Shown here one piece after another: positions 2,248-21,720 of a stretch of DNA of 21,720 nt. The position numbers and the translations under genes were made by a program. Under the pieces are notes generated by a model. That model did no database searches. It worked only from the letters and a program-made list of their open reading frames with translations, and was not told where the DNA came from. Positions within the stretch are counted from its first letter, which is position 1; every line of letters starts with the position of its first letter. Origin of the DNA: Polyrhizophydium stewartii (lineage: Eukaryota; Chytridiomycota; Chytridiomycetes; Rhizophydiales); contig JADGIZ010000169.1 in assembly GCA_027604665.1 (NCBI GenBank), positions 1 to 21,720 on the forward strand. The letters are read 5' to 3'.

Positions 2248-3812
2248 ATGTACAACAACGGCATGGCGTCAAGCAGCGCCATGCCGTACAGCTCCCCACC
2301 ATACCCACCCCAGCAGGGATATGTCATGTCCCAACCGCAGCAAATGCCTCCTCCAACGACGCAACAGCAGTCGTTTGCCCGCGAGGTGCCGCTGCCGCCG
2401 TCGGAGCATCCCGCATACGAGGTCGTCATGCGTCTTCTCGGCGCCGTCATGGGCGGCCTCGGCAGCGTGCCTTGCCTTCCCTTCTGCTGCTGGAAGTGCG
2501 TGCCTGACGTTGCATGGATGCTCGCCGCGCGTGTGCCTCGCACTCTTGCTCGTCGCCGCGGCACGCTGCGGCCTGAGCGTGTCTGTCGCGCATGTTGTCT
2601 GTCGCGCGACGATGTCTTGGATTGACGCGTTGTTGTCGCTGCCGCTCCTGCCTCGCCTGATCTCGATCCCAACTCGCCATGCCGATCGACAACCGCGTGA
2701 TATCGCTCATGCGGCGCTGGCGGTTGGTCGCTGCATCTGCCCACGGGTGACTGCGGCGTCCCGGCTCGATTGGTCTCACTCGCGCCGCCAACGCAGCCCA
2801 TACCGCATCGTGCCGCAAGGCAACGTCGGGCTGCTGTCACGCTTCGGCAAGTTCTATCGGTCTGTGGACCCAGGACTGTACTTTGTCAACGTGTGCTCAG
2901 AAGATCTGCGTTCGGTCGACATCAAGATCCAGATTGGTGCGTGTGCTTGCTGCAGAGGTTTGGCTGCCGCATTGGCTCGACATCGCGTGGCCGTGGCTGC
3001 CAAGTCGATCCAACTGCGCGCCGACTCTCGCTCACACATGCGTTGACACTCGTTGCGACAGAGGACGTGCCGCGCCAGCAGATCATGACCAAGGACAATG
3101 TCAGCGTCGATCTCGACTCTGTGCTGTACTGGCATGTCGTGGATCCCTACATCGCCACGTACCTCGTGCAGGACGTGCGCCGCGCGCTGATCGAGCGCAC
3201 CATGACGACGATGCGCATGATTCTCGGTGCGCGCACGCTGCAAGACAGCATCGAGCACCGCGAGTCGATTGCAAACGAGATCCAGGCAATCATCTCGCCG
3301 GCCGCGCAGTCGTGGGGCGTCAAGATCGAGAGCATCCTGATCAAGGATCTGCAGTTCACGCGCGAGCTGCAAGAGTCGCTGTCGGCGGCGGCCAAGCAGA
3401 AGCGCATTGGAGAGTCCAAGGTCATTGCGGCGCAGGCTGAAGGTGCGTCGGTGGTCTGAGATGGGCCATGGTGCCCGATGCAGGTAATCGAGTGTCGAGC
3501 ACACGCTGACAGCCTCCGTCTCTTCACTGCACAGTCGACGCGGCCAGGCTGATGCGCGAGGCATCGGACATCCTGAACACGTGAGTTTTGTGTTCCGTGT
3601 GTGGTGTTCGCTGCTCTGAGTCCCGAGTGGGCGAACAGGCTGTGTGAGGGCAAAGCGGTGTCTGACAAGCGAGAACGTGCAGTCCTGCGGCGATGCAGAT
3701 CCGATATCTCGAGACGCTGCTCTCAATGGCGAAGACATCCGGAAGCAAGGTCATCTTCATGCCGCCGTCAGAGTCGAACGGTGCCAGCGTCACTCTCAAG
3801 CCTCCGCACTGA
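2248..3812 (+). CDS. Stomatin/slipin-family SPFH membrane protein, copy B (5 exons, 314 aa)
   Basis: Exons inferred: 2248-2495, 2797-2936, 3062-3442, 3535-3580 and 3683-3812; their sum is 945 bases. The architecture matches copy A: a short Tyr/Pro/Gln-rich N-terminus (MYNNGMASSSAMPYSSPP), a hydrophobic Cys-rich hairpin at ~62-82, the SPFH core from N83, and the GESKVIAAQAE helix. In the core I see one clear substitution (YWHAVDPY in A, YWHVVDPY here), then Lys to Arg in the small exon. The N-terminal ~35 residues differ from A, and so does the C-terminus (SNGASVTLKPPH). The first ATG of the open frame is at 2248 with G at -3; a TTG at 2215 is in frame but is not a plausible eukaryotic start. 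The two copies may have different targeting through their termini while forming mixed oligomers through identical cores; that is inference. Confidence 0.9.
2350..3776 (+). repeat. Tandem duplication unit B, stomatin core
   Basis: This is the second copy of the unit at 641-2066, in the same orientation. It spans from late exon 1 to the middle of exon 5, with all four introns at identical positions and phases. The near identity extends through non-coding intron DNA, which points to recent duplication or recent gene conversion and not to selection on the protein alone. Confidence 0.93.
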
Positions 3813-4060: not shown

Positions 4061-6655
4061 TCACATTAGGCTGCAAGACGGGTTATCCTCCTTCTTGGGC
4101 TTTGGCACAAGGCGTCTCCAAGTATCTCGCTGCTTGGGCTTGCGCGCGGTCTCGGCTCCACGGCGGACTTTCGCGGGGCGCTGAGTAACCACCTCAAACG
4201 TTGCACGGCGACGCTTTGCAGGCATCCTGGACTGAGCCACGTCAGCATCAAAGTTGTGGTCCATGGCGCCAGGTTCGTGCTCGGCGCTTTCGTCGGTGTC
4301 GACCGTCTCCTCATAGTCGCCGTCCACTGCCGAGCGCTGAGCGTCAGCAGGGCGTCGCAAGAAACGGAAATACTCGATATGTGACAGACCATTTGCGCAG
4401 TACTCCAGCGGCGACGAATCATAGACGGTCTGAGTGACTCGGCTCACAACCCGCACAGGAGCCTGTGCAGGCTTTTGGGCTGTGCTTGCGGTTGTGCCCG
4501 ACGGCCCTGCCGCCGCTTGGAATTCGACATCGCTGCCAGTCCACGGCACAAGCTTGAAGTCCAGCTTGGTGCGGCCCGCGTACTTTGATGCAAGCGTCAC
4601 CATCTTGAAGTCCCGCAGGATGAGGAGGCACGACGTGCTGTTGATCCACTTGATCGTCATCGATCCAAGATCCTTGAAGCGCGCTAGAATGTCCGATGAT
4701 CTCCACTTTGACGGGAAGTCGGTCAGCAAGAAGACGTTGGAGCGGTCGGGCAGTTCTGCGTTCATACTCGCTCATTAGCAAATCAAGGGCAGCGCGATAG
4801 AATCCCACATAAGCACAAACGCACTGTCTTCCCCAGCCAGATCGAAAAACTCATAGTCGGAGCGCATGGCGTTGATCTTGTTGGCGCAGCGACTGACGAA
4901 TGCATCGGACCAGTTGATCGGCCCCGCCAGCGGCTTTTCGGCGACAAAGGAGATCATTCGCAGGAACGAGATTCCGGTGATGTATGCATCGTATCCGGCC
5001 TCGTGCAGCTGCACTCCGGTGCCATCGTAGCGCTCGTATCCTGGCGCAAGGCCTGTGTCGAATTGTGTCAGATGCTTGCGCGCAGGTGGACGTGTTTCAA
5101 CGAGAAAGCGTATGCGACTCACGGATGACAGGGTGCTTGAAGGGTTCCTGCGTCACGGTTGTGTGCATTTCGCCCAGCAGCGTGCTGGGGATTTTGCTCT
5201 ATACAGGTGTCAGAAGCAAGATCGGTTGCAGCCAAGCGGCTGCTATGACCAGACATACCGTGAGATCAGTGTGCGCCGCAGCGACATATTTTGTGTCGAA
5301 GATGCTGCACATGTCGTGGTTTCAGCACACTGGAATTAACAAGCACCCGAAGCTGCACCACTCACGTCGGGAAGTTGCTGAGCAAGCTGCTCTTGAAGTC
5401 TGCAAACGACTCGGGGAGGGGCTTGAAAAAGCGGTTGAAAACATGGCACAGATCTGCGCGGCCAGGCGTCAGTGGCAATTATCATCAGGAGAGATTTGAG
5501 CGCGAGCGTGCCTAGGAACATATTGTGGCCAACAATAGGCTTCTTGGCATCAGCGAGGATGTCCATGACCCTGCGGAAGCCGATCATGGACTCGAGCTCG
5601 ACCTGGGCCGACACGGCAAACTGTCAGCAGCGCGAACGCAGTTGGCGAGATGCTCGAGCGGCACGGCGCACCAGCATGATTGCGCTGCGGCTCTCCTTCT
5701 TTTCCTTTTCTTCGGTGGTCATACGGCGAACGTCGACAGAGGTGCGGGTGCTCTCGGTCGATAGGAAGCCGTTGAATCTGGAAAGAACACGAGGTGAGCA
5801 GACTGGCGGAACATCGAAAGATTTCCTGACATTCCGACCAACGCACTGCTTTTTGACCTCCTGGTGGATCAAACGCTTGTGGTAGCTCGTCGGCGTCGAG
5901 ACTGAAAGCATCTCGGACGACGAGTTCTGCAGCCACTCCTTGACGCCGGCTCTGAAAGACGCGGGCACAGGTCAGCTCGGCGCCAACCTGGCAGCTGACG
6001 CAAGCCAGAACGCACATGGCAGAATCCACAAAGGGCTGGTTGCGCTCGTCAATGACGATGTCGGAGTCGTCCATTGCCTCAATGCGCTTCCTGATGGCCG
6101 ACGCATCGGCTTGGCTGACAAAGGGGACGCCTGCGACAGTGGGGGCTTGAGCACACGGCCCAGGCGGCGGACGCGGGACGAGGCGCATGCAGCGGCACGC
6201 CAGCACGACAGACGCACCATGCACGACCCAGCGGTTGAAGTCAAAGTTGTTCGAGGCCAGGAACTCGAGCGACGAGGCCTGCACTGTGAAGGTGCGCTCG
6301 AGGCCAAGGGCCTTGCTGCCAGTGCGCGGGAACACAAAGAAGTTGAATGGGCGTGCGACGAACAGCTCGACCTCGTCGTCCCACTGGAAGGCGCATATGC
6401 CAACCTGGATGGGCTGGAACTGGAGCGCCGAGCAGCGCCGCTTGGCGTACCGCTCCTGCGCCGTGTCGAGCAGGTCGAGTTGTTCGCCGTCCGTGATGCC
6501 AAGGCCTGTGGGGCGTCAGCGGAGCGTGCTGGGGGCGAGGCGGCAGAGCGGCCCGCACCGGTGAACTCGGTATCAAAGGCAACAAAGTCAGCCGCCTGGA
6601 TGGCCTCGCGCACGGTGCCCAGCAGCTGCTCGAAGTTGCCGCGCGTGACGTCCAT
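4061..6655 (-). CDS. PARN: Poly(A)-specific ribonuclease PARN, DEDD-family deadenylase (11 exons, 644 aa)
   Basis: Exons in transcription order: 6655-6559, 6505-6218, 6130-6016, 5951-5847, 5777-5672, 5602-5512, 5453-5366, 5304-5259, 5198-5123, 5052-4825 and 4755-4061; the total is 1935 bases with the stop. PARN is a Mg-dependent 3'-5' exonuclease that removes poly(A) from mRNAs and small non-coding RNAs. All four acidic catalytic residues are present: D28 and E30 (FDTEF), D268 (GHNMFLD) and D359 in HEAGYDAY, with H354 as the DEDDh histidine. The R3H-like segment lies around residues 140-230. An RRM starts near 418 (RSNVFLLTDFP), and W450 aligns with the cap-contacting Trp of human PARN. The tail is basic, with a likely nuclear localisation signal (MPAKRRR...AKVRR), and ends in CSLM, a CaaX-like motif. 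Length is close to the human enzyme. The start ATG (GCCATGG context) gives D28/E30 the same numbers as in human PARN. The exon 5-6 junction is the least certain. Confidence 0.93.
5454..5511 (-). other. PARN: GC-AG intron of PARN splitting the codon of catalytic Asp268
   Basis: On the minus strand the exon ends ATGTTCCTAG and the intron begins GCACGC; it ends GCGCAG before ATCTGTGCC. Joining them restores GHNMFLD with Asp split G/AT, and the downstream frame then matches PARN. No GT donor nearby preserves the frame. All other PARN introns proposed here are GT-AG. Confidence 0.8.
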
Positions 6656-6814
6656 GGCCGGGGTGGGGGGTCGGCTGGTCGCTGTCGGCGAGGGCATTCG
6701 GCCGTCCTCAGGACGCGCGCTTTCTCGGCGGGCGGGCGGGCATCTCGCGTCGCACCACCCGCCCGCACCCGCGCGCGACGCAGCCGCCGACACCGCGCAA
6801 GCAAGCACTCCGCC
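6656..6814. promoter_or_regulatory. Divergent promoter region between PARN and dynein
   Basis: Only 159 bases separate the PARN ATG (minus strand, 6655) from the dynein ATG (plus strand, 6815), so both 5' leaders and promoters must fit here or overlap the genes. The region is very GC-rich and has no TATA box that I can see. GCGGGCGGG at 6732-6740 faces its reverse complement at 6758-6766, which could be paired GC boxes or a hairpin. Whether the two genes are co-regulated is unknown. Confidence 0.6.
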
Positions 6815-9800
6815 ATGCCCGAGGACAAGAAGGACGACGAGCCCAAGAAGGGCAAGAAGGACAAGGAGGGCGACGGCGACGACGGCGCGCCCGCCGTTGT
6901 GCCGGTCGATGCGCGCGTCCAGTGGTTCGAGGAGCGGGTCTGCAGCAGCCTCAAGATCAAGAACGACAAGTGGAAGAAGCTCATCTCGGTCGGCGAGAAC
7001 GTGTGAGTGGCGAGCGCCTTTGTGTTCTGCATGCGCGGCGGTGGTGGCCTCGTGTGCGGCGGTGCGCGTGTTGGTTAGGGGCGGCGTTGGCGACCTCCTC
7101 GCCCGCCCCGATGCCGGGTCGCATGCTGGTCCGTCTGGCGGCCGAGGCGATCCAGACAACAACGCGATGCGCGCGATGCCATCGTGTCCGCCGGCCGCGC
7201 ATTGTCGCAAATGCAGAGTCGACCGCGCTCGGCCACGCTGGCCACGTCACCAGACACCGACTGACGACTGTCCGCACCGCCGACTGCAGCGAGATCATCT
7301 ACCAGTTCCTCGACAAGGACTTCACCACGATCCTCTTCTACCTCACGCAGAAGGAGGAGCTACTGCCCGCAGTTAATTTCCCGTCGCAGCTCAAGCGCAA
7401 GGCCATCTACTTCACCAAGAAACGCCCCGGCGCGCAAATCACCGAGAAGCTCGACCAGGAGCTCATCCTTGGCGACTTGTCCGCGAACCCACTCGAGTTC
7501 CTCTCCACCGTACTGGAGGAGGTCTACCTGCCGCTGCTCACCAACCCAAAGAACCTCGAGTCCTGGCCCGAGGTTGTCGCCAGCGACGTGCTGCGCCACT
7601 TCCACCAGCTCAACGGTGCCGTCTATGTGATCTCGGGCAAATCCAAGGTGCGTGTCCCTGGTCGTGCGGACTGCGCTGACCTCTGCTGACTCCCGACTCC
7701 GGCTTGCTCGACTGCAGGGCAAGACAATGCTGCCTCTGCCGCACGGCGCGCGTGTCCTGACCGAGAGCGACAAGAGCATCCTGCATACCCTCGAGTCGGC
7801 CGTCATTGACTGGACGCACCAGATCAAGGAGGTCATTAAGAGCAGCTCATCCGCGCCGCTTGACGAGGGCCTCAACCCGGGTCCCATCGTCGAGATTGAC
7901 TTTTGGGCCGCCAAGGCTGCCAATCTCAAGTCGATCCACCAGCAGCTCACCGACGAAAAGATCCAGAAGATCGCCAAGGTGCTCCAAGCGAGCAAGAGCA
8001 CGTATTACCCGGCGTTCCAGCTCATTTTTGATGAGGTCGTTTTCGGTGCGCATTCGACCTACTCTCCACGCTTTGCCCACCGTCTGTGTTTAAACTGCTG
8101 ACGCATGCTCCGCACGTGCTCGCATTGATTGGGGAACAGCCCTCGAGGAGGCGAGCGACATCAACACATACCTCAAGGCCCTTCGGCCGCAAGTCGAGCG
8201 TCTTGCCGGCGCGAGCGAGCTAGCGGAGCTCTCGCAGATCTTCCCGGGGCTGATGCACACGCTGCTCATGATCTGGAAGTCGTCCAAGCACTACAACACG
8301 CCCAACCGCCTCACCGTCGTCATCCAGGAGATCTGCAACGACATCATCGACCAAGCTCGCACCTTTATACAGCCCGCCGAGATCTTCGCCGCTGAGCCCG
8401 AGGAGGCCGCAGAGCGCCTGCGACTTGTGCTTCGCATCTGCGACTCATTCAAGACAACGTACTTTGAATACAAGACCTCGACGGCAGAGTCCTCTCGGCC
8501 GTGGAACTTTGACTCGCGGATGATTTTTGGCCGTCTCGACAAGTTCCTCGTCCGGGTGCAACAGATCCTCGAGCTCTTTGAAATCATCATCGAGTTCAAC
8601 CGCCTCGAGAAGATCGAAATTGGTGGCACCAAGGTTCGGGCATTCTTGGTTCTCCTTTCGTTTGCTCATGTCCCCAGCTGACCCACTGCAATCTGCCCTC
8701 GGCTGTCCAACCGAACAGGGCAAGATCCTCAGCTCGCAGGTGGCGCAGATCTTCACCGAGTTTGTCGCGGCGCTGAGCGTCTTTGGCAAGCTCAAGTACG
8801 ACGTTTTGGACATTGCACTGCCCGACTTCAATGTGGACCGCGGCAAGTTCCACGAAAAGATCACTGACCTCGATCGCCGCATTGGGTGAGCCGAGAGTGG
8901 CGATAATCCGTCGACCAAGCACGTTGCACTGACGCATCTTCATCGCAAAGCACGATTCTGTGTCAAGCGTTTGATGACTGCTCCGGCCTCTACTCGTGCT
9001 TCCGCCTCCTCGAGTCGTTCTCTGGCCTGCTCAACCGCAGCAACATCCAAAAGGACTTTGAGCAAAAGTACTTTGAGCTGCTCTCGATGTACTCGCAAGA
9101 CCTCGATGATGTATCCGTCATATTTCTGCGCTACAAGGATGCGCCGCCGATCCACTACAACATGGCGCCAGTCACAGGCGCCGTCGCTTGGATCCACGAG
9201 CTCAAGGACCGCATCACCAAGGCCATGGAGAAACTCAAGACGGTGCGTCTAGTGGTCTGGCGCGGGGAACTGTGCTGGCCGAGCCTGCGTCATGCTGACA
9301 GCTTGTGCTGTATCATCTTGCAGCTCAATCACTCGGTCATGAACACGGACGAGGCGAGCACGGTCAAGAACAAGTACAACGAGCTCTTGGCCGCTCTCGA
9401 CGCCTACGAGCAGGGCATCTTCAACAAGTGGAAAGACAACATCATCGACGAGTCAGAGGCCAACCTGAACAAGCCTGTGCTGATCCGCGAAGCGAACCTG
9501 CTCAAGGTCAACTTTGACCCCAAGGTCGTCGCACTCCTGCGCGAAGTCAAGTACTTTGGTGCGCTCAGCGTGCAGCCGCCGCCTGCCGCCGTCGACATCT
9601 ACGCCAAGGCCGAAACCTTCCGCAAGTACATATTCTCGCTCGAGAACATTGCCAACATGTACAACGGCATCCGCACGGGCGTTCTCGACGTCGAGCGGCC
9701 GCTCATTGAGGACAAGATTCAGCAGATCGACGCACAGATCGAGCAGGGCGTGACATCCCTCAACTGGAAGTCCGAGAGCATCGACACGTACATCGCCGAG

Positions 9801-12800
9801 ATCTCTGGCACGGTCGGAAACCTTTCGTCTGTCCTGCAAATCATGAAGAACAACCTCAACCAGATCACAAAGATCCTCAAACAGTGGTCGGCCAACCCGC
9901 TGATCGAGCGCAAGGACGGCAAGAAGCTCCTCAACCTCGAAGAGAAGGAGGCAAAGCTCAACACCGCCAACGAGGTCATCCGCAAGGACGGACAGACAAT
10001 CCTCAACCTCGTCGAGCAGACACGTCAGCTGGTCGAGGCGGCGCCCGAGACCGAGCAGTGGTCGCGATACCGCAAGCATGTCGACATGATTGTACAAAAG
10101 GGCTTCTGGACCACTGTCAAGTCGAGCATGGAGTACATTTTGCAGAACATGGAGAGCGACCGCGCTGCCGAGATCGGCCCGCTGCTCGAGGCCAAACTCG
10201 AGCTCGAAAACGAGATGCTCGTGTTCACGCCGAGCATGGATGAAGGTGCGTGGCGCTGGCACTCAGCTGGAAGAAGCGTAAATGTTAACGTGTCCACTGC
10301 TACTCTCTTTCTTGGCTCAGACTCGCCCGAAGGCCTCATGTCGATCATCGAGTCGTTGATTGAGGATATCTACGACGTGTCGTCGCTCATGCCGCGTGTC
10401 GCGCCGGTCGAGAAGCCGCCGACGCCTGCTGCCCCCGCAAAGGTCGAGGGCGACGCTGCGGCCACAACAGCCGCGGGAGAAGAGTCCGGCGAGCTCCTCG
10501 AAGGCGCCAGCGAGTCCGGCAAGGCGCTAGGCCTCCTGAGCACCGAAAACGACACCTATCTGGGCGAGATGCGCCAAGACGAGACGCTCGACAACATGCG
10601 TGTTTCAATCATCGAGCACGTGCGCAACATCATCGAGAGCTGCGCGCAGTACAAGGAGGGCTATGACCAGTACACGTACCTGTGGACCGAGAACCGCCAA
10701 GAGTACATGAAGCAATTCCTGCAGCCCGCCGAGACGACCGATGCTGAGGGCGACGCCGCCGCGCAGGCCGAGGAGGAGCAGCCCATCCAGCTCGAGAAGT
10801 TTGAGACCGAGATCCGCAAGTTCGAGGGCATCCACAAGACCGTCATGGCACTCGACCCCGAGGTCATATTCGAGGGCTGGTTCCGCATCGACGCGCGGCC
10901 GCTCAAGCAGTCGCTCAACGTCGTCGTCAAGAAGTGGAGCTACACACTCACCAAGCACCTCTCTGACGACACGGTCAACATGCTCAACGAGCTCAACCGA
11001 TTCGTCAAGCTCAACAAAAAGGGCCTGCAGGGCAAGATCGAGGAGGGCGACTACGACGGTCTCGTCGCGGCCATGGGTCTTTTGCACGCGATCAAGCACC
11101 GCACGGCAAGCATCGACAAGATGTTCGAGCCGCTGCGCAAGACCGTCAATCTGCTCCGCCAGTTTGGCGTCGAGCTCCCCGAGGAGATCCACAAGCTGCT
11201 CAACGATCTGCCCGAAGAGTGGTCCGAGGTCAAGAAGCTGTCTGTTTCGATCAAGGACCACGTTGCGCCGCTGCAGGCCAAGGAGGTCGATGTCCTGCAG
11301 CAAAAGTGCAACCGATTCGAGATGAAGAACCACAACTTCCGCGAGGAGTTCCGCAAGAAGGCCCCCTTCAAGTTCGAGATTGGGCCAAACCGCGCATACG
11401 AGCTCATTGACGCCGCGCACTTTGACGTGCTGGCCATGGAGACCGAGGCCACCTCGCTCAAGAAGTCGTGCGAGCTCTTTGAGCTCAACGTTCCCACGTA
11501 CCGCCAGCTCGCCGACTGCCGCCGCGACATTGGTATGCTCAAGAGCATCTGGGACCTCGTGTCGCTCGTGACGTATATGTTTGGCCAGTGGCGCACGACG
11601 CTCTGGACCGAGATCGACACCGACTCGATGGAGAACAGGTGCCGCGATTTGTCCAAGGAGCTGCGTAGGATGGACAAGGAGATCAAGGGCTGGGACGCGT
11701 ACGCTGGCCTCGACCAGATGGTCAAGGACATGATCACCAGCTTGCGCGCCGTCGGCGAGCTGCGCAGCAACGCAATCCGCGATCGTCACTGGAAGCAGCT
11801 CATGAAGACGACCGGCGTCACGTTTGTGCTCACCAAGGACATGAAATTTCAAGACCTGCTGAGTTTGCAGCTGCACAAATACGAGGACGACGTCAAGGTC
11901 ATTGTCGACCGCGCCACAAAGGAGCTCGCGATGGAGAAGGTCCTGAACGATCTCGACAAGACGTGGTCGGCAATGGAGTTCACGTACGAGATCCACGAGT
12001 CGACCAAGACGCCACTTCTGCGCTCGTCCGAGGAGCTCATCGAGACGCTCGAGGACAACCAGGTCATGCTTCAGAACATGATGACCTCCAAGTACGTCGC
12101 GCACTTTGAGGAGCAGATCACCAAGTGGCAGATTGCGCTCTCAACCGTCGACACAGTCATTACGCTGTGGCTCGAAGTGCAGCAGACGTGGTCGCATCTC
12201 GAAAACATCTTCCTTGGTTCCGAAGATATCCGCGCGCAGCTTCCAGAGGACTCGCGGCGCTTCGACGGCATCGACGCGAGCTACAAGGCGCTCATGAACG
12301 AGGCACAGAACACACCCAACTGCGTCAAGGCGTGCACCAAGGAGGGCCTGTTCGAGAAGCTCGAGCACCTCGAAGGCCAACTCGCACTTTGCGAGAAGTC
12401 GCTGGCAGAGTACCTGGAAACTAAGCGCCTTGCCTTCCCGCGCTTCTACTTTGTGTCTGCATCGGACTTGCTGGACATCCTGGCAAAGGGAAACATGCCA
12501 GATGCAGTCGCGATCCACCTGCCCAAGCTCTTTGACTCAATCTCGCGGCTCGAGTTCCAAAAGTCGCCGTCCGGCGAGCTCACAAAGACTGCCATCGGCA
12601 TGTACTCGCGCGAGGACGAATATGTTCCGTTTGTCGAAAAATGCCAGTGCACGGGTCCCGTCGAGACGTGGCTCAACAGGCTCGTCGACAGCATGTGCTC
12701 GACTCTCAGGCACCTGCTTGGAGAGGCCGTCGCGTCGTACGAAGAGAAGCCGCGTGAGCAGTGGATCTTTGACCATCCGGCGCAGATCACGCTCGCAGGC

Positions 12801-15800
12801 ACCCAGATCTGGTGGACGACCGAAGTCAACGTCGCGTTCAGCCGCCTCGAGGAGGGCTACGAGAACTCGCTCAAGGACTACTACAAGAAGCAAGTCAACC
12901 AGCTCACAGCGCTGATCGGGCTCATCCAAGGCGAGCTCACGCGTGGCCACCGCCAAATGATCATGACCGTCTGCACGCTCGACGTGCACGCGCGCGACAT
13001 TGTCGCCAAGCTCATTGCTGAAAAGGCCGAGAATGCCCAGTGCTTCAGTTGGCAGTCGCAGCTGCGTCTGCGCTGGGACGATGTGGATCAGAACGACTGC
13101 TTTGTCAACATCTGCGATGCTGGCTTCCGCTACAACTACGAGTACCTTGGGTGAGCATGCTCTGCGAGCCGCACAGTCAAAGTGGCTTCTGCTAATATTA
13201 CTCTGCAGAAACACTCCGCGCCTCGTGATCACTGCCCTGACTGATCGTTGCTACATCACGCTGACTCAAGCGTTGCATTTGATCATGGGTGGTGCCCCCG
13301 CCGGTCCCGCTGGTGAGCTGATGCGTCGGCTGCGTGCTTGCCAACGCTTTTGAGCTGACCACCGATCCAGGAACGGGCAAATGCTGGGGCCGCGGCACGC
13401 GGCTGGTCATGCTCGACGGCACGGCCAAGGCGGTCGAGGAGATCTGCGAGGGCGACGTGCTCATGGGACCGGACTCGCAGCCGCGCACCGTGCGGCCCGG
13501 CTCCATCACGCGCGGCACCGAGGCCATGTACCGCGTCACGGCGACCGACGATGCCCGCATCTCGTGGACCTGCAACGGCCCGCACATCCTCGTGCTGCAG
13601 CTCAACGCCAAGCCAACCGTTGTTGCCGCCGGCGGCCGCTACTTCGTCAAGACGTGGACGACGCGGCCTGGCACGAGTGCCGTCTCGCAGATCCCGTGTG
13701 CGGATCTTGTTGGCGGAGCATTCTCGACCCGCAACGATGCCGAGGCTTTCATCGACGAGCTTGTGCGCACCGAGTGGCAGCCACTCGTGTTCGAGTGCAC
13801 CGTCGTCGATTACCTTGCTATCAAGGACGAGTCGCTGCGGCAGTCGATGGCCATGTTCCAACCGCCGCTGATCGAATGGCCGTCGCCAGCCGTCTCGCTC
13901 GCTGCGAGGATCAGTGAGATGCGCGGCCCAGAGGCGTCGTTCGCCATGGTCGCCCAGATTGCATGGGCCATCGGCGCATGGCTGGCGCTGAGCACTGGTT
14001 CCGGCCGCGTCGAGATTTGCGAGCAAGTTCACTCGGAGTTTGAACGCATCGCGGCGATGCTCGGCGAGGGTGTGCCGGGGAAGTGCGGGTCGGCATTCTC
14101 GGCATTGATCGGGTCGTACTGGCTGGCCCAGGCCACGCACATCCCGCACGAGCTGATGACCGAGTGCCCGACGGTACGCCGCGCGCTGCTGGCTGGACTT
14201 GTCGACCGCAGCGGAAGCATTGGCGAGGACGGCGGCTGCACGATCACATCTGCATCGGCAGGCATCCTGACTGATGCAGCAAGCCTGGCTCGCGGCCTCG
14301 GCCTCGTCGTCGGAAAGTCGCACGAGCACGCATCCATCGCGGTTCGCGGCGCGGGCCTCACGGCTGTTGCCGAGCACATTGTGGCCGACGATAAGCGCCG
14401 CGCCGTCGCTGAGCTGGCATCGAGCGCACGCGGCGCCGACTCGTGCTTTGGCTTCACGATCGAGTGTGTTGGAGTCGACGACTACTTTGGCTTCTCGCTC
14501 GACGGCCGCGACGGCCGCTGCCTGCTCGAGGACTATACCGTGACGCACAACACCGAGACGGTCAAGGATCTGGGCAAGGCGCTTGCCATTGCCGTGTATG
14601 TGTTCAACTGCTCAGAGCAGATGGACTACAAGTCTATCGGCAACATCTTCAAGGGTCTGGCTCAGTCGGGCACATGGGGATGCTTCGACGAGTTCAACCG
14701 CATCTCAGTCGAAGTGCTTTCTGTCGTGGCCACACAGGTCAAGTCCATCCAGGACGCACTGCGTGCGCGCAAGAAGCGCTTCATCTTCCAGGGCGAGGAG
14801 ATTGGCCTCGTGCGAACCGTCGGCGAGTTCATCACCATGAACCCTGGCTATGCCGGCCGCACGGAGCTGCCCGAAAACATCAAGGCGCTCTTCCGGCCAT
14901 GCTCCATGGTCGTGCCCAACCTCGAGTTGATTTGCGAAATCATGCTCATGGCCGAGGGCTTCATCGAGGCCAGCTCGCTCGCGCGCAAGTTCAACACGCT
15001 CTACAAGCTCAACCGAGAGCTGCTGTCGAAGCAGGACCACTACGACTGGGGCTTGCGCGCCATCAAGTCTGTGCTCGTTGTCGCCGGCTCTCTGAAGCGG
15101 TCGGACCCCAACGTGCCAGAAGAGCACGTGCTCATGCGTGCGCTTCGCGACTTTAACCTGCCCAAAATCGTCACCGACGACCTGCAAGTGTTCCACGGCC
15201 TGATTGGCGATCTGTTCCCCAAGGTCGAGGTGCCCCGCAAGCGCAACGAGCGGCTCGAGGAGGAGATCCGCAAGGCGACCGTCGAGAACGGACTGCAGGC
15301 AGAAGACATCTTTGTGCTGAAGGTGGTGCAGCTCGAGGAGCTCATGGCCGTGCGCCACTGCGTCTTCATCATCGGCAACTCGGGCACCGGTAAGAGCCGT
15401 CCCCACGCAGCTGGTTTCGACGCCTCCTGCTGACCATGCTGTTTGCTGTAAATCCACTCAAACAGGCAAATCGCAGATCTGGAAGATGCTGTCCAAGACG
15501 TATGTCAACATGGGCCGCAAGTGCACGACGTCGGACCTCAACCCCAAGGCTGTCAGCACCGACGATCTCTTTGGCTGCATCAATCCGTCGACGCGCGAGT
15601 GGAAGGACGGCTTGTTCTCGTACATCATGCGCGAGATGGCCAGCGCGCCGGGAACCGACCCCAAGTGGATGATTCTCGACGGCGACATTGATCCAAACTG
15701 GATCGAGTCGCTCAACACCGTCATGGACGACAACAAGATGCTGACGCTGGCGAGTAACGAGCGCATTCCGCTCAAGAACCACATGCGTCTTGTGTTTGAG

Positions 15801-18800
15801 ATCGGCAACCTCAAGTACGCGACACCGGCAACGGTCTCGCGCGCCGGTATCCTCTATCTCAACACGACCGACCTGGGCTGGAACCCCTACGTCCAGTCGT
15901 GGCTCGAGAAGCGCGAGGACGCGGCTGAGCGATCCAACCTGTCGGTGCTGTTTGACCGCTACGTCAACCCATGTCTTGAGGCTTGCCGCTCGGGCCGCTT
16001 CAAGATGGCCAACGTCGAAGAGTTCTCGATGGTCGTGGCGCTGTGCAACATCCTCGAGGGCCTGCTGACGCCCGTCAACACGCCAAAGGGGTGCGACAAG
16101 GAGTGGTTCGAGCTCTACTTTGTGTTTGCCGCTGTCTGGGCCTTTGGCGGCTGTGTCTTCCAGGACCAGATGGCCGACTATCGCAACGAGTTCAGCAAGT
16201 GGTGGAACTCGGAGTTCAAGGTCGTCAAGTTCCCGCCCTCGGGCACAGTCTTTGACTACTTCATTGACACCGAGACGAAACGGTTCCTGCCATGGACTGA
16301 CCGCGTGCCCGTATACGAGTACGACCCCGAGATGCCGCTCCAAGCCGTGCTCGTGCATACCCAAGAAACCACGCGCGTCCGCTACTTCCTGGACCTGCTC
16401 GCTGACAACGGCAAGCCCGTGCTGCTCATCGGCAACGCCGGTTGCGGCAAGACGGTGTTGATGCAGGACAAGCTCAACTCGTACGGCGAGGACCGCTTGA
16501 TTGTCAACGTGCCCTTCAACTTCTACACTACCGCGTGGTCGCTGCAGGCTGTGCTCGAGAAGCCGCTAGAAAAGAAGGCCGGCCGCAACTACGGCCCGCC
16601 GGGCAACAAGAAGATCATCTACTTCCTCGACGATCTCAACATGCCCGAGGTCGACAAGTACGGCACGGCGAGCCCGCACACACTGTTGCGCCAGTTCCTC
16701 GACTACCGCCACTGGTACGACCGCGCGAAGCTGACGCTCAAGGAGATCCACAACTGCCAGTACGTCGCGTGCATGAACCCAACGGCCGGCTCGTTTACGA
16801 TCGACCCGCGCCTCCAGCGGCACTTTGCGTGCTTCTCGGTCAACTTCCCTGGCGTCGAGTCGCTGCAGAGCATCTACTTGCAGATCCTGAACGGGCATCT
16901 CAAGTCGTTCCCGCCGTCGATGCAGAAGCTGTCCGAGCGCATCGTCACCGCCGCGCTGCTTCTGCACAAGAAAGTGTCCACGACCTTCCTGCCAACGGCC
17001 ATCAAGTTCCACTATGTCTTCAACCTGCGCGACCTCAGCAACATCTTCCAAGGCATCCTGTTCTCGACCAAGGAGAAGGTCAAGGACGCCATCGAGCTCG
17101 TGCGGCTCTTCATCCACGAGACCTCGCGCACATATGGCGACAAGATGATTGACGAGACCGACCGCCAGAGCCTCGTCAAGCTGCAGGAGGAGATCATGAA
17201 GAAGAACTTTGAGGATATGGACCAAGCGAGCCTCAAAGCCGAGCCCAACATCTTTGCGCACTTTGCCGGCGGCATGGGCGAGCCCAAGTACGGCCAGGTC
17301 AAGGAGTGGGCCCAGCTGCGCAAGCTGCTCGACGAAGCGCAAATGCAGTACGAGGAAGTCAACGCGGCCATGAACTTGGTGCTCTTTGAGGACGCCATGA
17401 GCCACATCTGCCGCATCAACCGCATCCTCGAGTCGCCGCGCGGCAACGCGCTTCTGGTCGGTGTCGGTGGCTCGGGCAAGCAGTCTCTTTCGCGTCTCGC
17501 AGCCTTCATCTCGCAGATGGAGGTCTTCCAGATCACGCTGCGCAAGGGCTACTCGATAAACGACCTCAAGACCGACCTTGCCAGTCTGTACATCAAGACG
17601 GGCCAAAAGAAGATGCAGATCATGTTCCTGCTCACGGACTCGCAGATTGCCGACGAAAAGTTCCTGGTGCTCATCAACGACCTGCTCGCCTCGGGCAACA
17701 TCCCAGGCCTGTTCCCCGACGACGAGGTCGAGAGCATCATCAACTCCATGCGCGGCGAGGCCAAGGCGCAAGGCCTGGTCGACACGCGCGAGGTGTGCTG
17801 GGAAATCTTCATTCGCTTTGTGCGGCGGAACCTCAAGGTTGTGCTCTGCTTCTCGCCCGTGGGCAACACGCTGCGCTCTCGCTGCCGCAAGTTCCCGGCC
17901 ATAGTCAACTGCACCATGATCGACTGGTTCCAGGAGTGGCCCGAAGAAGCCCTGACGTCGGTCGCAAATCGCTTCATCTCGACATTCGATCTCGTACCAG
18001 AGCCGCTCAAGGTGCCCGTGACTAAGTTCATGTCGTTTGCGCACATGGGTGTCAACGCCGTCTCGCGCAAGTATCTGCTCAACGAGAAGCGCTACAACTA
18101 CACAACGCCAAAGTCGTTCCTGGCCCTGATTGCGCTTTACAAGGAGATGCTCGAGAAGAAGGCGCTCGAGCTTACCAAAAGCATGGACCGCCTCGAGAAC
18201 GGTCTCACAAAGCTGCAAGCGACCGCCGGCCAAGTCGACGACCTCAAGGCCAAGCTCGCAACCCAGGAAGTCGAGCTCAAGTCCAAGAATGAGGAGGCCA
18301 ACCGTCTCATTGAGCGCGTCGCCATCGACACTGAAAAGGTCAACAAAGAGAAGGCCATCGCCGCCGAGGAGGAGAAGAAGGTCGACGCAATCACAAAGGA
18401 GGTCAACGAGAAGAAGATGGCTTGCGAGAAGGATCTCAGCGCCGCCGAGCCGGCTCTCGCCGCCGCTTCCAACGCTCTCAACACTCTCAACAAAGCCAAC
18501 TTGACCGAGCTCAAGTCGTTCGGCTCTCCCTCGGAGGAAGTCAAGAACGTCGCGGCCGCGTGCATGGTGCTCCTGAGCCCGCCGGGCAAGATTGCAAAGG
18601 ACCGCTCCTGGAAGGCGTCCAAGAACATGATGGCCAAGGTCGACGCGTTCCTCGAGTCACTGATCAACTTCAACAAGGAGGCAATCGACCAGTCCAACCT
18701 CGACGCGCTGCAGCCGTACCTGCAAGACCCCAACTTCAACGAGGAGTTCATGCGCTCCAAGTCGATTGCCGCCGCCAGCTTGTGCGCCTGGGCCGTCAAC

Positions 18801-21720
18801 ATTGTCAAATACTACCACGTGTATTGCGACGTCGAACCTAAGCGCAAGGCGCTCGAGGCAGCCAACGCCGAGCTGCAGACCTCGCAGGCGCGTCTGCGCG
18901 ACATCCAAGCCAAGATTGGCGAGCTCGACCGCAATCTGGCGGACCTGCGTGCCAAGTTCGAGAAGGCGACGGCAGACAAGCTCCGCTGCGAGGAGGAGGC
19001 CAAGAGCACACAAGAGACGATCGTGCTGGCCAACCGCCTGGTCAACGGCCTAGCCTCAGAGAAGGTGCGCTGGAGCGAGGCCGTCGGCAAGTTCAAGGAG
19101 CAGGAGAAGACTTTGGCCGGCGATGTGCTCATCTCGGCCGCGTTCGTGTCATATGTCGGCTGCTTCAGCAAGCGTTATCGCGAGGAGCTGCTCAACGACA
19201 ACTGGCTCCGTTACCTGCGCGACGAGAACAACGCCTTCCGCGTGCCGCTCTCGGACGGTGTCGACCCGCTGAGCATTCTGACCAACAGCGCCGAAATCGC
19301 AAAGTGGAACAACGAGGGCCTGCCAACGGACAGAGTCTCGCTCGAAAACGCAACCATGGTCACGAGCTGCAAGCGCTGGCCGCTCATCATCGACCCGCAG
19401 CTGCAAGGCGTCACATGGATCAAGAACCGCGAAGGCGCTGGGCTCAAGGTCGTGCGGCTCGGCGCGCGCGGATATCTCGACAGCATCGAGAAGGCCGTCT
19501 CGTCGGGCGACGCGGTGCTGATCGAAGACATTGCCGAGAGCATTGACCCCGTGCTCAATCCGCTTCTTGGCCGCGAGACGATCAAGAAGGGCCGATACAT
19601 CAAGATGGGCGACAAGGAAGTCGAGTACGACGCGCGCTTCAAGCTCATTCTGCAGACGCGTCTCGCCAACCCGCACTATCCGCCTGAGATCCAGGCGCAG
19701 ACGACGCTCATCAACTTCACCGTCACCATCGCCGGTCTCGAGGACCAGCTTCTGGCCGACGTCGTCAACATCGAGCGGCCGGACCTCGAAAAGACCAAGG
19801 CTGATTTGACCAAGCAGCAGAACGAGTTCAAGATCAAGCTTACCGAGCTCGAGGACGCGCTACTGTCCCGTCTCTCTGCGGCGCAGGGCAATTTCCTTGG
19901 TGACACGGCTCTGGTCGAGAACCTCGAGATCACCAAGAGCACGGCAACAGACATTGAGCAAAAGGTTGAGGAGGCCAAGCGCACCGAGAAGAAGATCAAC
20001 GAGACGCGCGAGTTGTACCGGCCTGTTGCTGCGCGGTCGTCGCTGCTCTACTTCCTGCTCAACGACCTGTGGCAGATCCACCCCATGTACCAGTACTCGC
20101 TCAATGCGTACAAGGTCGTCTTCAAGAACGCTATCAACCGCGCTGACGCGAGCGAGGATATCAAGGAGCGTGTGCTGCTGCTCATTGACTCGATCACATA
20201 TATGGTCTTTGTCTACACCACGCGCGGTCTCTTTGAGCGCGACAAGCTCATCTTCACGGCGCAGATGACGTTCCAGATCCTGATTGCGCAGGGCGACATT
20301 GAGTACGCCGAGCTCGACTTTTTGCTGCGTGCGCCGCGCGCAATGGGCGTCAACAGCACGCTCGAGTGGCTCAGCACGCCGTCGTGGGGCATGATCAAGG
20401 CGCTCTCGAATCTCGAGATCTTCCGTACCCTCGCGTCGGACATCGAGGGCTCGTCCAAGCAGTGGAAAAAGTACTGCGAAAACGAGTGTCCCGAGAACGA
20501 GAAGCTGCCGCAGGTGCGTGACTGATCGAGCTCTGCGGTCACCTCGCTCATCGAAATGCTGACGCTGGTATGCACTGCCGAGCACAGGAGTGGAAAAACA
20601 AGACCCCGCTGCAGAAGATGTGCATCCTGCGCTGCCTGCGTCCCGACCGCATGACGTACGCGGTGCGCAACTTTGTCGGCATGAAGATGGGCCAGCGCTT
20701 CATCGAGGCCGCGCGCGTTCCACTGGCCAAGTCGTTCGAAGAGTCTGCCCCGGCGACGCCCGTGTTCTTTATCCTCTCGCCCGGTGTCGATCCCGTCAAG
20801 GACGTCGAGGCCCTGGGCCGGCAGCTGGGCGTGTCCGAAGACAACGGCAACTTCCACAACGTCTCACTCGGGCAGGGCCAGGAGGTCATTGCCGAGCAGA
20901 AGCTCGACATCGCGTACAAGAACGGCGGCTGGGTCATGCTTGAAAACATCCATCTCGTCGCCAAGTGGCTGCCAACGCTCGAGAAGAAGCTCGAGGCGCT
21001 GTCGCTCGGCGCACACCCCGACTTCCGAGTGTTCCTCTCGGCCGAGCCCGCGGGCGATCCAGCGTATCACATCATCCCGATCTCGATCCTGCAGGCGTCG
21101 ATCAAAATCACCAACGAGCCGCCGACGGGCATGCAGGCCAACATCCACCGCGCGCTCGACAACTTTTCGCAGGAGACGCTCGAGCGCTGCTCCAAGGACG
21201 CCGAGTTCAAGGCGATCCTGTTTGCGCTGTGCTACTTCCACGCCGTCGTTCTTGAGCGCAGAAAGTTTGGTACACAAGGCTGGAACAAGCCGTATCCCTT
21301 CAGCACGGGCGACTTGATGATCTCGGTCGATGTGTTGTTCAACTATCTCGAAACGTTCGCAAAGGTGCCGTGGACCGACCTGCGGTATATTTTTGGCGAG
21401 ATCATGTACGGCGGGCACATCTCCGATGACTGGGACCGTCGGCTGTGCTCTGCGTATCTTGACGTGTACTTGCGCGAGGAGATGCTCGACGGCAACTTTG
21501 AGCTTGCGCCAGGCTTCGGCAGCCCGCCCACGTCCGACTACAAAGAGTACCACAGATACATCGACGACAACCTGCCACCAGAGTCGCCGTACCTCTACGG
21601 CCTGCATCCAAATGCCGAGATCGGCGTGCTGACCAAGATGGCTGACAAGCTGTTCAAGACCATCCTCGAGATGCAGCCGCGCGACACGGCCGGCGGCACG
21701 GCGTCGTCCAAGGAAGAGAA
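6815..21720 (+). CDS. DNAH9/11/17-like: Axonemal outer-arm dynein beta-type heavy chain with intein, 3' partial (12 exons)
   Basis: Exons: 6815-7002, 7290-7647, 7718-8045, 8140-8633, 8719-8885, 8951-9242, 9324-10245, 10321-13150, 13209-13312, 13371-15389, 15466-20513, and 20588 to the window edge. All junctions keep frame, giving 4627 precursor codons, 4237 after removal of the 390-residue intein. This is the ciliary minus-end motor subunit. Order: Lys/Asp-rich start ([13 protein letters not shown]), DHC N1 tail, linker, AAA1 P-loop (GPAGTGK, split by an intron and the intein) with CFDEFNR; AAA2 P-loop GNSGTGKS (15374-15473, intron inside) and [12 protein letters not shown]3 GNAGCGKT (16431-16454) with [12 protein letters not shown]4 GVGGSGKQS (17460-17486); stalk; AAA5 ([12 protein letters not shown]); AAA6. 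The sequence around AAA1 ([18 protein letters not shown]) matches the DNAH9/11/17 beta group and not the gamma group. About 200 C-terminal residues lie beyond the window. Confidence 0.95.
13313..13370 (+). other. Intron 9 of the dynein gene, inside the AAA1 Walker A motif
   Basis: This 58-base intron has donor GTGAGC, branch-like GCTGAC and acceptor TCCAG. It splits the fourth P-loop residue (GPAG, codon G/GA) and ends 11 bases before the first intein codon. Removing it joins GPA to GTGK in frame. Confidence 0.9.
13382..14551 (+). mobile_element. Intein (390 aa) with degenerate LAGLIDADG endonuclease domain, in dynein AAA1 P-loop
   Basis: An in-frame block interrupts GTGK-TETVKD exactly after the Walker A Lys. 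Block A is [13 protein letters not shown] at residues 1-13, followed by [17 protein letters not shown]. Block B is [10 protein letters not shown] (T63, N65, H68), very like TCNATHELVV of the yeast VMA1 intein. The endonuclease region holds a first helix IGAWLALS (197-204) and a second [12 protein letters not shown] (268-279, D275). Block F is VDDYFGFSL (365-373). Block G is YTVTHN (385-390), followed by extein Thr. Cys1, His389, Asn390 and Thr+1 are the residues required for standard protein splicing, so it is predicted to excise itself and ligate the motor. The first LAGLIDADG helix lacks the catalytic Asp (L203 at the equivalent position), so cutting activity is doubtful. Codon use is GC-rich like the host gene, which suggests long residence. 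There are no stops or frameshifts. Confidence 0.96.
18130..19090 (+). other. Dynein stalk: coiled coil 1, microtubule-binding domain, coiled coil 2
   Basis: Within dynein exon 11, a heptad-rich, Lys/Glu-rich helix starts near [16 protein letters not shown] (about 18136) and runs to about 18470. The microtubule-binding domain follows ([15 protein letters not shown], later [19 protein letters not shown]). The returning helix begins near [15 protein letters not shown] (about 18832) and runs to the [14 protein letters not shown] stretch. This is the part of the motor that holds the axonemal doublet microtubule. Confidence 0.88.
21483..21720. repeat. Right arm of the window-terminal inverted repeat
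   Basis: This segment lies inside the last dynein exon. It is the reverse complement of 1-238 with three mismatches. The coding frame here is continuous with the rest of the dynein, so this arm is the parental or functional copy and the left arm is the truncated one. Confidence 0.93.

Follow-up and report, generated by a model that had tools for sequence, protein, structure and literature searches.

The question raised by this locus is what the long open block inside the ATP site of its dynein gene is, and how such a block came to be there. The window, that is the whole stretch of 21,720 nucleotides of DNA from the chytrid Polyrhizophydium stewartii (Rhizophydiales) which was analysed, had been given an initial annotation from its letters alone. 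In this annotation a 390-codon open block with Cys1, a His-Asn end and Thr+1 was placed precisely in the GTGKT of AAA1 and was read as an intein. The exact coordinates of the block, 13382-14551, were confirmed. The features of the host gene and of the block are as follows.

8907 to 13150, plus strand: open frame of the host dynein with DHC_N1 and DHC_N2 regions, from profiles; 8907 is the limit of the frame, not the 5' end of the gene
13151 to 13208, plus strand: predicted intron, from splicing into one frame
13209 to 13312, plus strand: short host exon ending with base 1 of a glycine codon of GTGK, from the spliced frame
13313 to 13370, plus strand: predicted spliceosomal-type intron of 58 nt, GT...AG, common to all eight intein sites
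13371 to 13381, plus strand: exon piece of 11 nt, GAACGGGCAAA, with most of GTGK, between intron and intein
13382 to 14551, plus strand: predicted intein of 390 residues between Lys and Thr of GTGKT (AAA1 Walker A), from the open reading frame, profiles and predicted fold
13382 to 13474, plus strand: N-terminal splicing block (Cys1 ... LMGPD), from the 34-protein alignment
13568 to 13597, plus strand: splicing block with Asn65 and His68, from the 34-protein alignment
13967 to 13999, plus strand: first LAGLIDADG motif, degenerate, with Leu203 in place of the catalytic Asp, from the alignment
14186 to 14218, plus strand: second LAGLIDADG motif, degenerate, with Ser277 in place of the catalytic Asp, from the alignment
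14480 to 14551, plus strand: C-terminal splicing blocks (DYFGFSLDG ... His-Asn), then Thr, from the alignment
14552 to 15389, plus strand: host exon, remainder of AAA1 from TETVKDLGK, from profiles and the spliced frame
15390 to 15465, plus strand: predicted intron of 76 nt within the AAA2 P-loop codons (GNSGTG, KS), from the spliced frame
15466 to 20522, plus strand: host exon with the further motor domains and the stalk; best solved relatives DNAH17 and DNAH9

The GTGK before the block becomes readable once the 58-nt intron is removed. Removal of all three predicted introns, whose ends were placed by the analyst from the sequence, gave one dynein frame of 3807 residues including the intein with 0 stops, and deletion of the block restored a textbook dynein with standard P-loop flanks, as had been proposed. 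The reading of the host as an axonemal dynein heavy chain also held, dynein domains being present and the nearest solved structures being DNAH17 (2390.6 bits) and DNAH9 (2383.4 bits), with the next at 1644.7 bits; some PDB dynein chains are mislabelled (CFAP57, malate dehydrogenase, radial spoke head) and the adjacent DNAH-named chains were used. The AAA2 P-loop of the window gene carries no intein. Introns in P-loop codons were also observed without an intein, namely in AAA2 of the window gene and in AAA1 of DNAH10 (C27). Elsewhere in the window, a Band_7/SPFH gene is duplicated in tandem (623-2066 and 2332-3776; blocks 92-95% identical, spacing 1709-1710), and CAF1 ribonuclease and RNA_bind frames on the minus strand at 4064-7246, opposite to the strand of the dynein, are probably one poly(A)-ribonuclease-like gene.

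The 390 codons of the block are free of stops; the first residue is Cys, the end reads TVTHN and the next codon is Thr. The search against intein and Hint profiles, which had been suggested as a check, gave Pfam Hom_end_hint at E 1.5e-18 and Hom_end at E 1.4e-8, both above the cut-offs, and NCBIfam returned 0 families. The PDB search matched the window intein to PI-SceI at E 9.5e-15. The predicted model showed a Hint fold, as a full intein fold with junction residues, and matched PI-SceI over its whole length at 21% identity. The alignment of 34 proteins revealed that G13 is invariant and C1 and D31 are nearly invariant in the N-terminal block, and that N65, H68, H389 and N390 are invariant in 34/34 rows; the splicing block at 13568-13597 is presumably the one named block B. 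The Hint fold, nucleophiles at 1 and +1, the block B His and the terminal His-Asn are thus found together in an in-frame insertion whose removal leaves an intact host protein. A chance origin is contradicted by the profiles, the PI-SceI match and seven further copies in the genome. Profile, predicted fold and residues agree in identifying the block as an intein of the VMA1/PI-SceI type. The designation of 13382-14551 as an intein in the AAA1 P-loop of an axonemal dynein heavy chain, with predicted self-excision, is supported.

The genome (12.86 Mb in 690 contigs) was searched with the intein and eight places were found; the Hom_end_hint profile returned the same eight. The window copy and six others have 390 codons, the six being 88-94% identical to the window copy, and the eighth has 403 codons and 43% identity to it. 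No stop codon occurs in any of the eight. Seven of the copies share one AAA1 position, each in a different axonemal dynein gene; the genes concerned are given below.

DNAH9/17-type, C169 (the window): AAA1 intein
DNAH5-type, C59: AAA1 intein and the eighth intein in the AAA2 P-loop (two inteins in one gene)
DNAH1, C246: AAA1 intein
DNAH6, C49: AAA1 intein
DNAH3/7/12 group, three genes, C74, C106 and C15: AAA1 intein in each

The AAA_7 profile found 13 dynein-like loci, a further weak match in C137 being set aside, and six of the 13 are without an intein: DNAH10 (C27), DNAH2 (C19), C123, C267, C7 and C45. By their GPAGTGKTESVKA motif, C123 and C267 are presumably cytoplasmic dyneins. C7 and C45 are divergent dynein-like motor genes. 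Inteins are therefore found in 7/9 of the axonemal dynein genes detected. Four P. stewartii proteins can already be found in nr, named simply as dyneins; the inteins of P0137, P0138 and P0139 are 390/390 identical to those of C246, C106 and C15. The public model P0140, named DNAH6, starts within its intein, and P0139 is without the residues immediately before GTGK, the exon end having been dropped. Two other inserts were observed in this genome. One in C180 (L043) was read as a Prp8 intein with an intact-looking LAGLVDSDG, and one in the RPB1 gene of C356 (L044), TLN^S...RD^TFHYAG, is intein-like with an Intein_splicing match below cut-off. Together with the dynein copies this would make about ten inteins in one nuclear genome.

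Other dyneins were compared using a protein search with the spliced dynein, and the best 120 of 2450 matches were listed. An uninterrupted GTGKTE..KD was present in 113 of these 120, including P0144 of B. dendrobatidis. Five of the 120 showed GTGKC, namely three P. stewartii proteins and P0142 and P0143, and two showed neither form (P0140 and P0181). P0142 comes from Dysnectes brevis and P0143 from Kipferlia bialata, two members of the Fornicata, and their junction is the identical GPAGTGK^C...HN^TETTKDLG. Cys1, the terminal His-Asn and Thr+1 are kept in 8/8 fungal and 2/2 fornicate copies. In the intein tree, from which the mini-intein P0007 was left out, the seven fungal AAA1 inteins form a clade (98/96) with the AAA2 copy as sister (98/95), and the fornicate copies stand apart (100/100). 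The nearest to the fungal copies are an XPB-like P-loop intein, an RNR intein and an RTEL-like intein, followed by inteins in UPF1-, FtsH-, katanin-like and RPB1 proteins, some of these host labels resting on sequence reading. Among these relatives, P0002, P0007 and P0022-P0027 are inteins in UPF1, FtsH-like, RPB1 and protein kinase fragments (Pfam) and, by sequence reading, in XPB-, katanin- and RTEL-like fragments, all from eukaryote-looking sources. In P0002, P0022 and P0025 a Val follows the His-Asn and then non-host sequence, as if a GT... intron started at the end of the intein. A viral donor was also sought and no close one was found: scanning with the window intein yielded 14 pattern stretches with 0 relatives among them. 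When the 34-row alignment served as query, there were at least 600 stretches, at least 556 of them encoding a relative; among the best 80 of 556 relatives, the best row had 29% identity over residues 1-390, and L103 had 48% over its best segment only.

The state of the endonuclease was analysed from its catalytic residues, the columns being defined by P0003. A LAGLIDADG domain is present in the window intein, as indicated by the Hom_end profile and the whole-length PI-SceI match. Both catalytic Asp positions are changed in 10/10 dynein inteins (8/8 fungal, 2/2 fornicate), the first being Leu in 7/7 AAA1 copies and the second Ser in 5/7. By these residues the dynein inteins would not be active homing endonucleases. 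Among the other inteins with the region (n=11; two mini-inteins of the alignment are without it), both Asp are present in five (P0003, P0004, P0008, P0027, P0029), one in three (P0014, P0023, P0024) and neither in three (P0002, P0022, P0025). Endonuclease loss is thus, to judge from these positions, common among the eukaryote-looking relatives. Since both Asp are lost in every dynein copy, the exchange now going on is probably ordinary recombinational repair, with homologous inserts as partners.

Evidence for such exchange came from the divergence of the copies. In 21/21 pairs of the seven, dS was lower for the intein (0.10-0.23) than for a 95-codon stretch of the host exon next to it (0.67-2.38). 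Of the 3570 pairs of informative sites among the seven, 1951 were incompatible, and incompatibility was lower at short distance (permutations as low: 0/2000 at 50 nt, P 0.0175 at 100 nt and 0.0315 at 200 nt). Host and intein identity showed no agreement over the 21 pairs (Spearman -0.35, p 0.12). The intein DNA tree is near-star; the host grouping of three DNAH7-like genes gave AU p 0.141, which leaves host-like descent of parts of the intein compatible with the data. The AAA2 copy is mosaic. Its intron is 83-97% identical to the seven and 97% to that of the window; codons 1-20 are about 98% identical to the seven and codons 21-40 are 77%, after which the 20-codon blocks fall to 62%, 60% and then 26-63%, the last two being 72% and 79%. 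Only three mismatches separate it from the window copy across -72 to +41. This pattern is most simply read as a conversion tract of about 130 nt from a window-like donor, by which the intron would have been carried into AAA2. From the mosaicism and the recombination signal, the copies in the paralogues evidently exchange sequence by ectopic gene conversion; its direction and trigger are what we infer. Selection on the seven copies was estimated as dN/dS, which was 0.29 overall, 0.19 for codons 1-75, 0.15 for codons 76-165, 0.34 for codons 166-345 and highest, 0.43, in the last 45 codons, where the splice residues are kept.

The 58-nt intron was followed with a query of 71 nt, comprising the intron 13313-13370 and the next 13 nt. 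The genome contained eight matches of 87-100% identity, one immediately upstream of each intein, and no match away from inteins was found among the best candidates scored at E up to 10. The intron was also considered as an introner, that is a genome-wide mobile intron, and this was not borne out by the same search of best candidates. Retention of the intron would give an in-frame stop in 7/7 AAA1 genes. Across the seven AAA1 loci, mean pairwise identity rose from 72% in the last 90 nt of exon ahead of the intron to 85% in the intron itself and 90-95% in four intein stretches, and then dropped to 81% in the 30 nt of exon that follow the intein and to 66% at +31 to +120. The mean intron distance of 0.180 is close to the mean intein dS of 0.171, and the mean upstream-exon distance was 1.21 for the computable pairs only, the other pairs being saturated. 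As intron and intein have similar distances and the host exons are far more diverged, a recent history common to the intron and the intein, and not to the host exons, is indicated. Position and similar ages suggest that the two moved jointly. Pair by pair (21 pairs), the intron distance did not follow whole-intein dS (Spearman 0.01, p 0.95) but did follow dS over intein codons 1-75 (Spearman 0.52, p 0.017); mean dS in these codons is 0.116, below the 0.180 of the intron. This points to conversion tracts shorter than the unit, so that the intron and the whole intein need not always move together. DNAH10 (C27), without an intein, has a 77-nt intron at the position of the shared one. Kinship of this intron with the 58-nt family was unsupported (shuffle P 0.211), and an unrelated intron at the same position means that the intron position may predate the intein.

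The best explanation, to which we give a probability of about 0.85, is that a VMA1-type intein splits the AAA1 ATP site and excises itself, and that its eight copies convert one another with the 58-nt intron as a composite unit, the endonuclease being apparently dead. Translation would yield a dynein precursor in which the intein interrupts the AAA1 ATP site, parting the Lys from the Thr of GTGKT, and the motor would be inactive before splicing. The Hint domain (Cys1, Asn65/His68, His389-Asn390, Thr+1) is predicted to excise, ligating ...GTGK to TETVK.... In such chemistry Cys1 attacks the Lys-Cys bond, Thr+1 takes the acyl group and Asn390 cyclises, yielding GTGKT. Because the motor would need splicing, the splicing part would be under selection and the intein could be lost only via exact deletion. 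The paralogue copies would act as mutual templates for ectopic conversion and would therefore stay alike, and the tract would carry the intron 11 nt upstream, rendering intron and intein one composite unit.

A possible but doubtful alternative is that an active homing endonuclease spread the seven AAA1 inteins, with the intron carried by co-conversion, and died afterwards. Homing is expected to co-convert sequence lying 11 nt away, the insertion site consists of conserved P-loop codons, and the presumed Prp8 intein with its intact-looking motif would place endonuclease-bearing inteins in the lineage. By parsimony, however, the Leu of all seven copies and the Ser of five make their common ancestor already dead, and the recent exchange seen in dS would come after the death of the endonuclease. 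It is unlikely that the intein was present in one ancestral axonemal dynein before the duplications, was kept uniform by concerted evolution and was lost from DNAH2 and DNAH10. Divergence is far greater in the host exons than in the inteins, and many losses would be needed, many of the 113 uninterrupted dyneins among the best 120 of 2450 being chytrid-named. One clade of fungal and fornicate dynein inteins was moreover disfavoured (AU p 0.02, for a group named after the tree was seen). These points stand against the identical site in seven paralogues, the DNAH10 intron at the shared position and the same-site inteins of the two fornicates, with which an ancestral intein would agree.

Quite unlikely, too, is a common post-translational gate, in which the inteins of 7/9 axonemal chains, with neither presumed cytoplasmic dynein carrying one, would activate the motors together through conditional splicing (e.g. 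redox or zoospore-stage). Conversion would then keep the switches alike, and DNAH2 and DNAH10, which pair as the two-headed inner arm I1/f, would be exempt. That the inteins have decayed and no longer splice, leaving dead motors or pseudogenes, is very improbable. The degenerate endonuclease motifs and the dN/dS of 0.43 in the last 45 codons would suit decay, but the splice residues are kept in all ten fungal and fornicate copies, selection is purifying overall and the host frame of the window is open over 3807 residues. Decay would also cost the fungus seven of nine axonemal heavy chains; relatives of P. stewartii swim as zoospores. Removal of the block from RNA as an intron is scarcely credible even with real introns flanking it and P-loop introns occurring in the genome, as it ends without GT...AG, has a length that is a multiple of three, is stop-free in eight copies, evolves at dN/dS 0.29 and has the full predicted intein fold with junction residues. 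An assembly or contamination artefact is extremely unlikely despite the 690 contigs and public nr proteins that come from the same species and are not independent, for the eight distinct loci have differing, correct dynein flanks and unrelated fornicate data show the same junction.

With the self-excising, mutually converting intein as the preferred reading, predicted protein splicing is placed in the path of flagellar assembly. The initial annotation had also proposed dynein as a new intein host. The literature search is in accordance with this, no report of a dynein intein having been found within its coverage, outside which fell largely the subscription papers and also the supplement of PMC5784728; as far as this search reaches, the intein is the first reported in a cytoskeletal motor. 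The dynein P-loop appears as a recurrent refuge of inteins, the two fornicates having probably reached the same site independently. Intein colonisation becomes directly testable in one organism, whose genome shows a gene family with eight occupied sites, an apparent intron-carrying element and a half-converted intermediate.

Several known systems come close to this case. Introner elements and other mobile spliceosomal introns are alike in having a near-identical short intron at several loci; they differ in occupying many unrelated genes, the matches of the 58-nt intron being found only beside the eight inteins. The Kipferlia and Dysnectes inteins share the dynein AAA1 junction and have likewise lost both catalytic Asp, but are 29-30% identical to the window intein and branch separately from the fungal ones in the tree, and their protein names as shown make no mention of an intein. 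The GK^ inteins P0002 and P0022-P0026 also follow the Walker A Lys and are 31-40% identical to the window intein. Their hosts differ, being UPF1 by Pfam (P0023, P0024), FtsH-like just below cut-off (P0022) and, by sequence reading, XPB-like (P0026), katanin-like (P0025) and RTEL-like (P0002). The VMA1 intein PI-SceI of Saccharomyces cerevisiae, at 21% identity, is a single copy in a vacuolar ATPase; it has its catalytic aspartates and Cys at +1, whereas the dynein intein has no such aspartates and Thr at +1. The window block was rejected as an allele of the VMA1 intein, its host being an axonemal dynein heavy chain and not the vacuolar ATPase A subunit.

According to the accessible text of Green 2018 (PMC5784728), the commonest nuclear intein hosts are Prp8, VMA1, RNA polymerase, ThrRS, GLT, CHS and eIF5B, three inteins in one fungal genome are considered remarkable and one apusozoan intein is reported. 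The nuclear fungal inteins described in the accessible text of PMC5784728 and PMC1635734 likewise lie in nuclear genes at conserved sites, and P. stewartii also has Prp8 and RPB1 candidates. The portions available of PMC7765530 and PMC8778642 have little bearing on dynein inteins. Swithers 2009 (PMC2814812), in the part accessible, states that inteins, not spliceosomal introns, are biased to conserved sites, so an intron in the same refuge as an intein would be unusual. Ectopic intein movement is held likely to be very rare in the accessible text of Goodwin 2006 (PMC1635734), and colonisation of new sites very rare because an ectopic cut lacks flanking homology. In homologous, partly paralogous polymerase subunits the same text finds inteins mostly at different sites and generally not close relatives, whereas in P. 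stewartii seven paralogues carry one intein at one and the same site.
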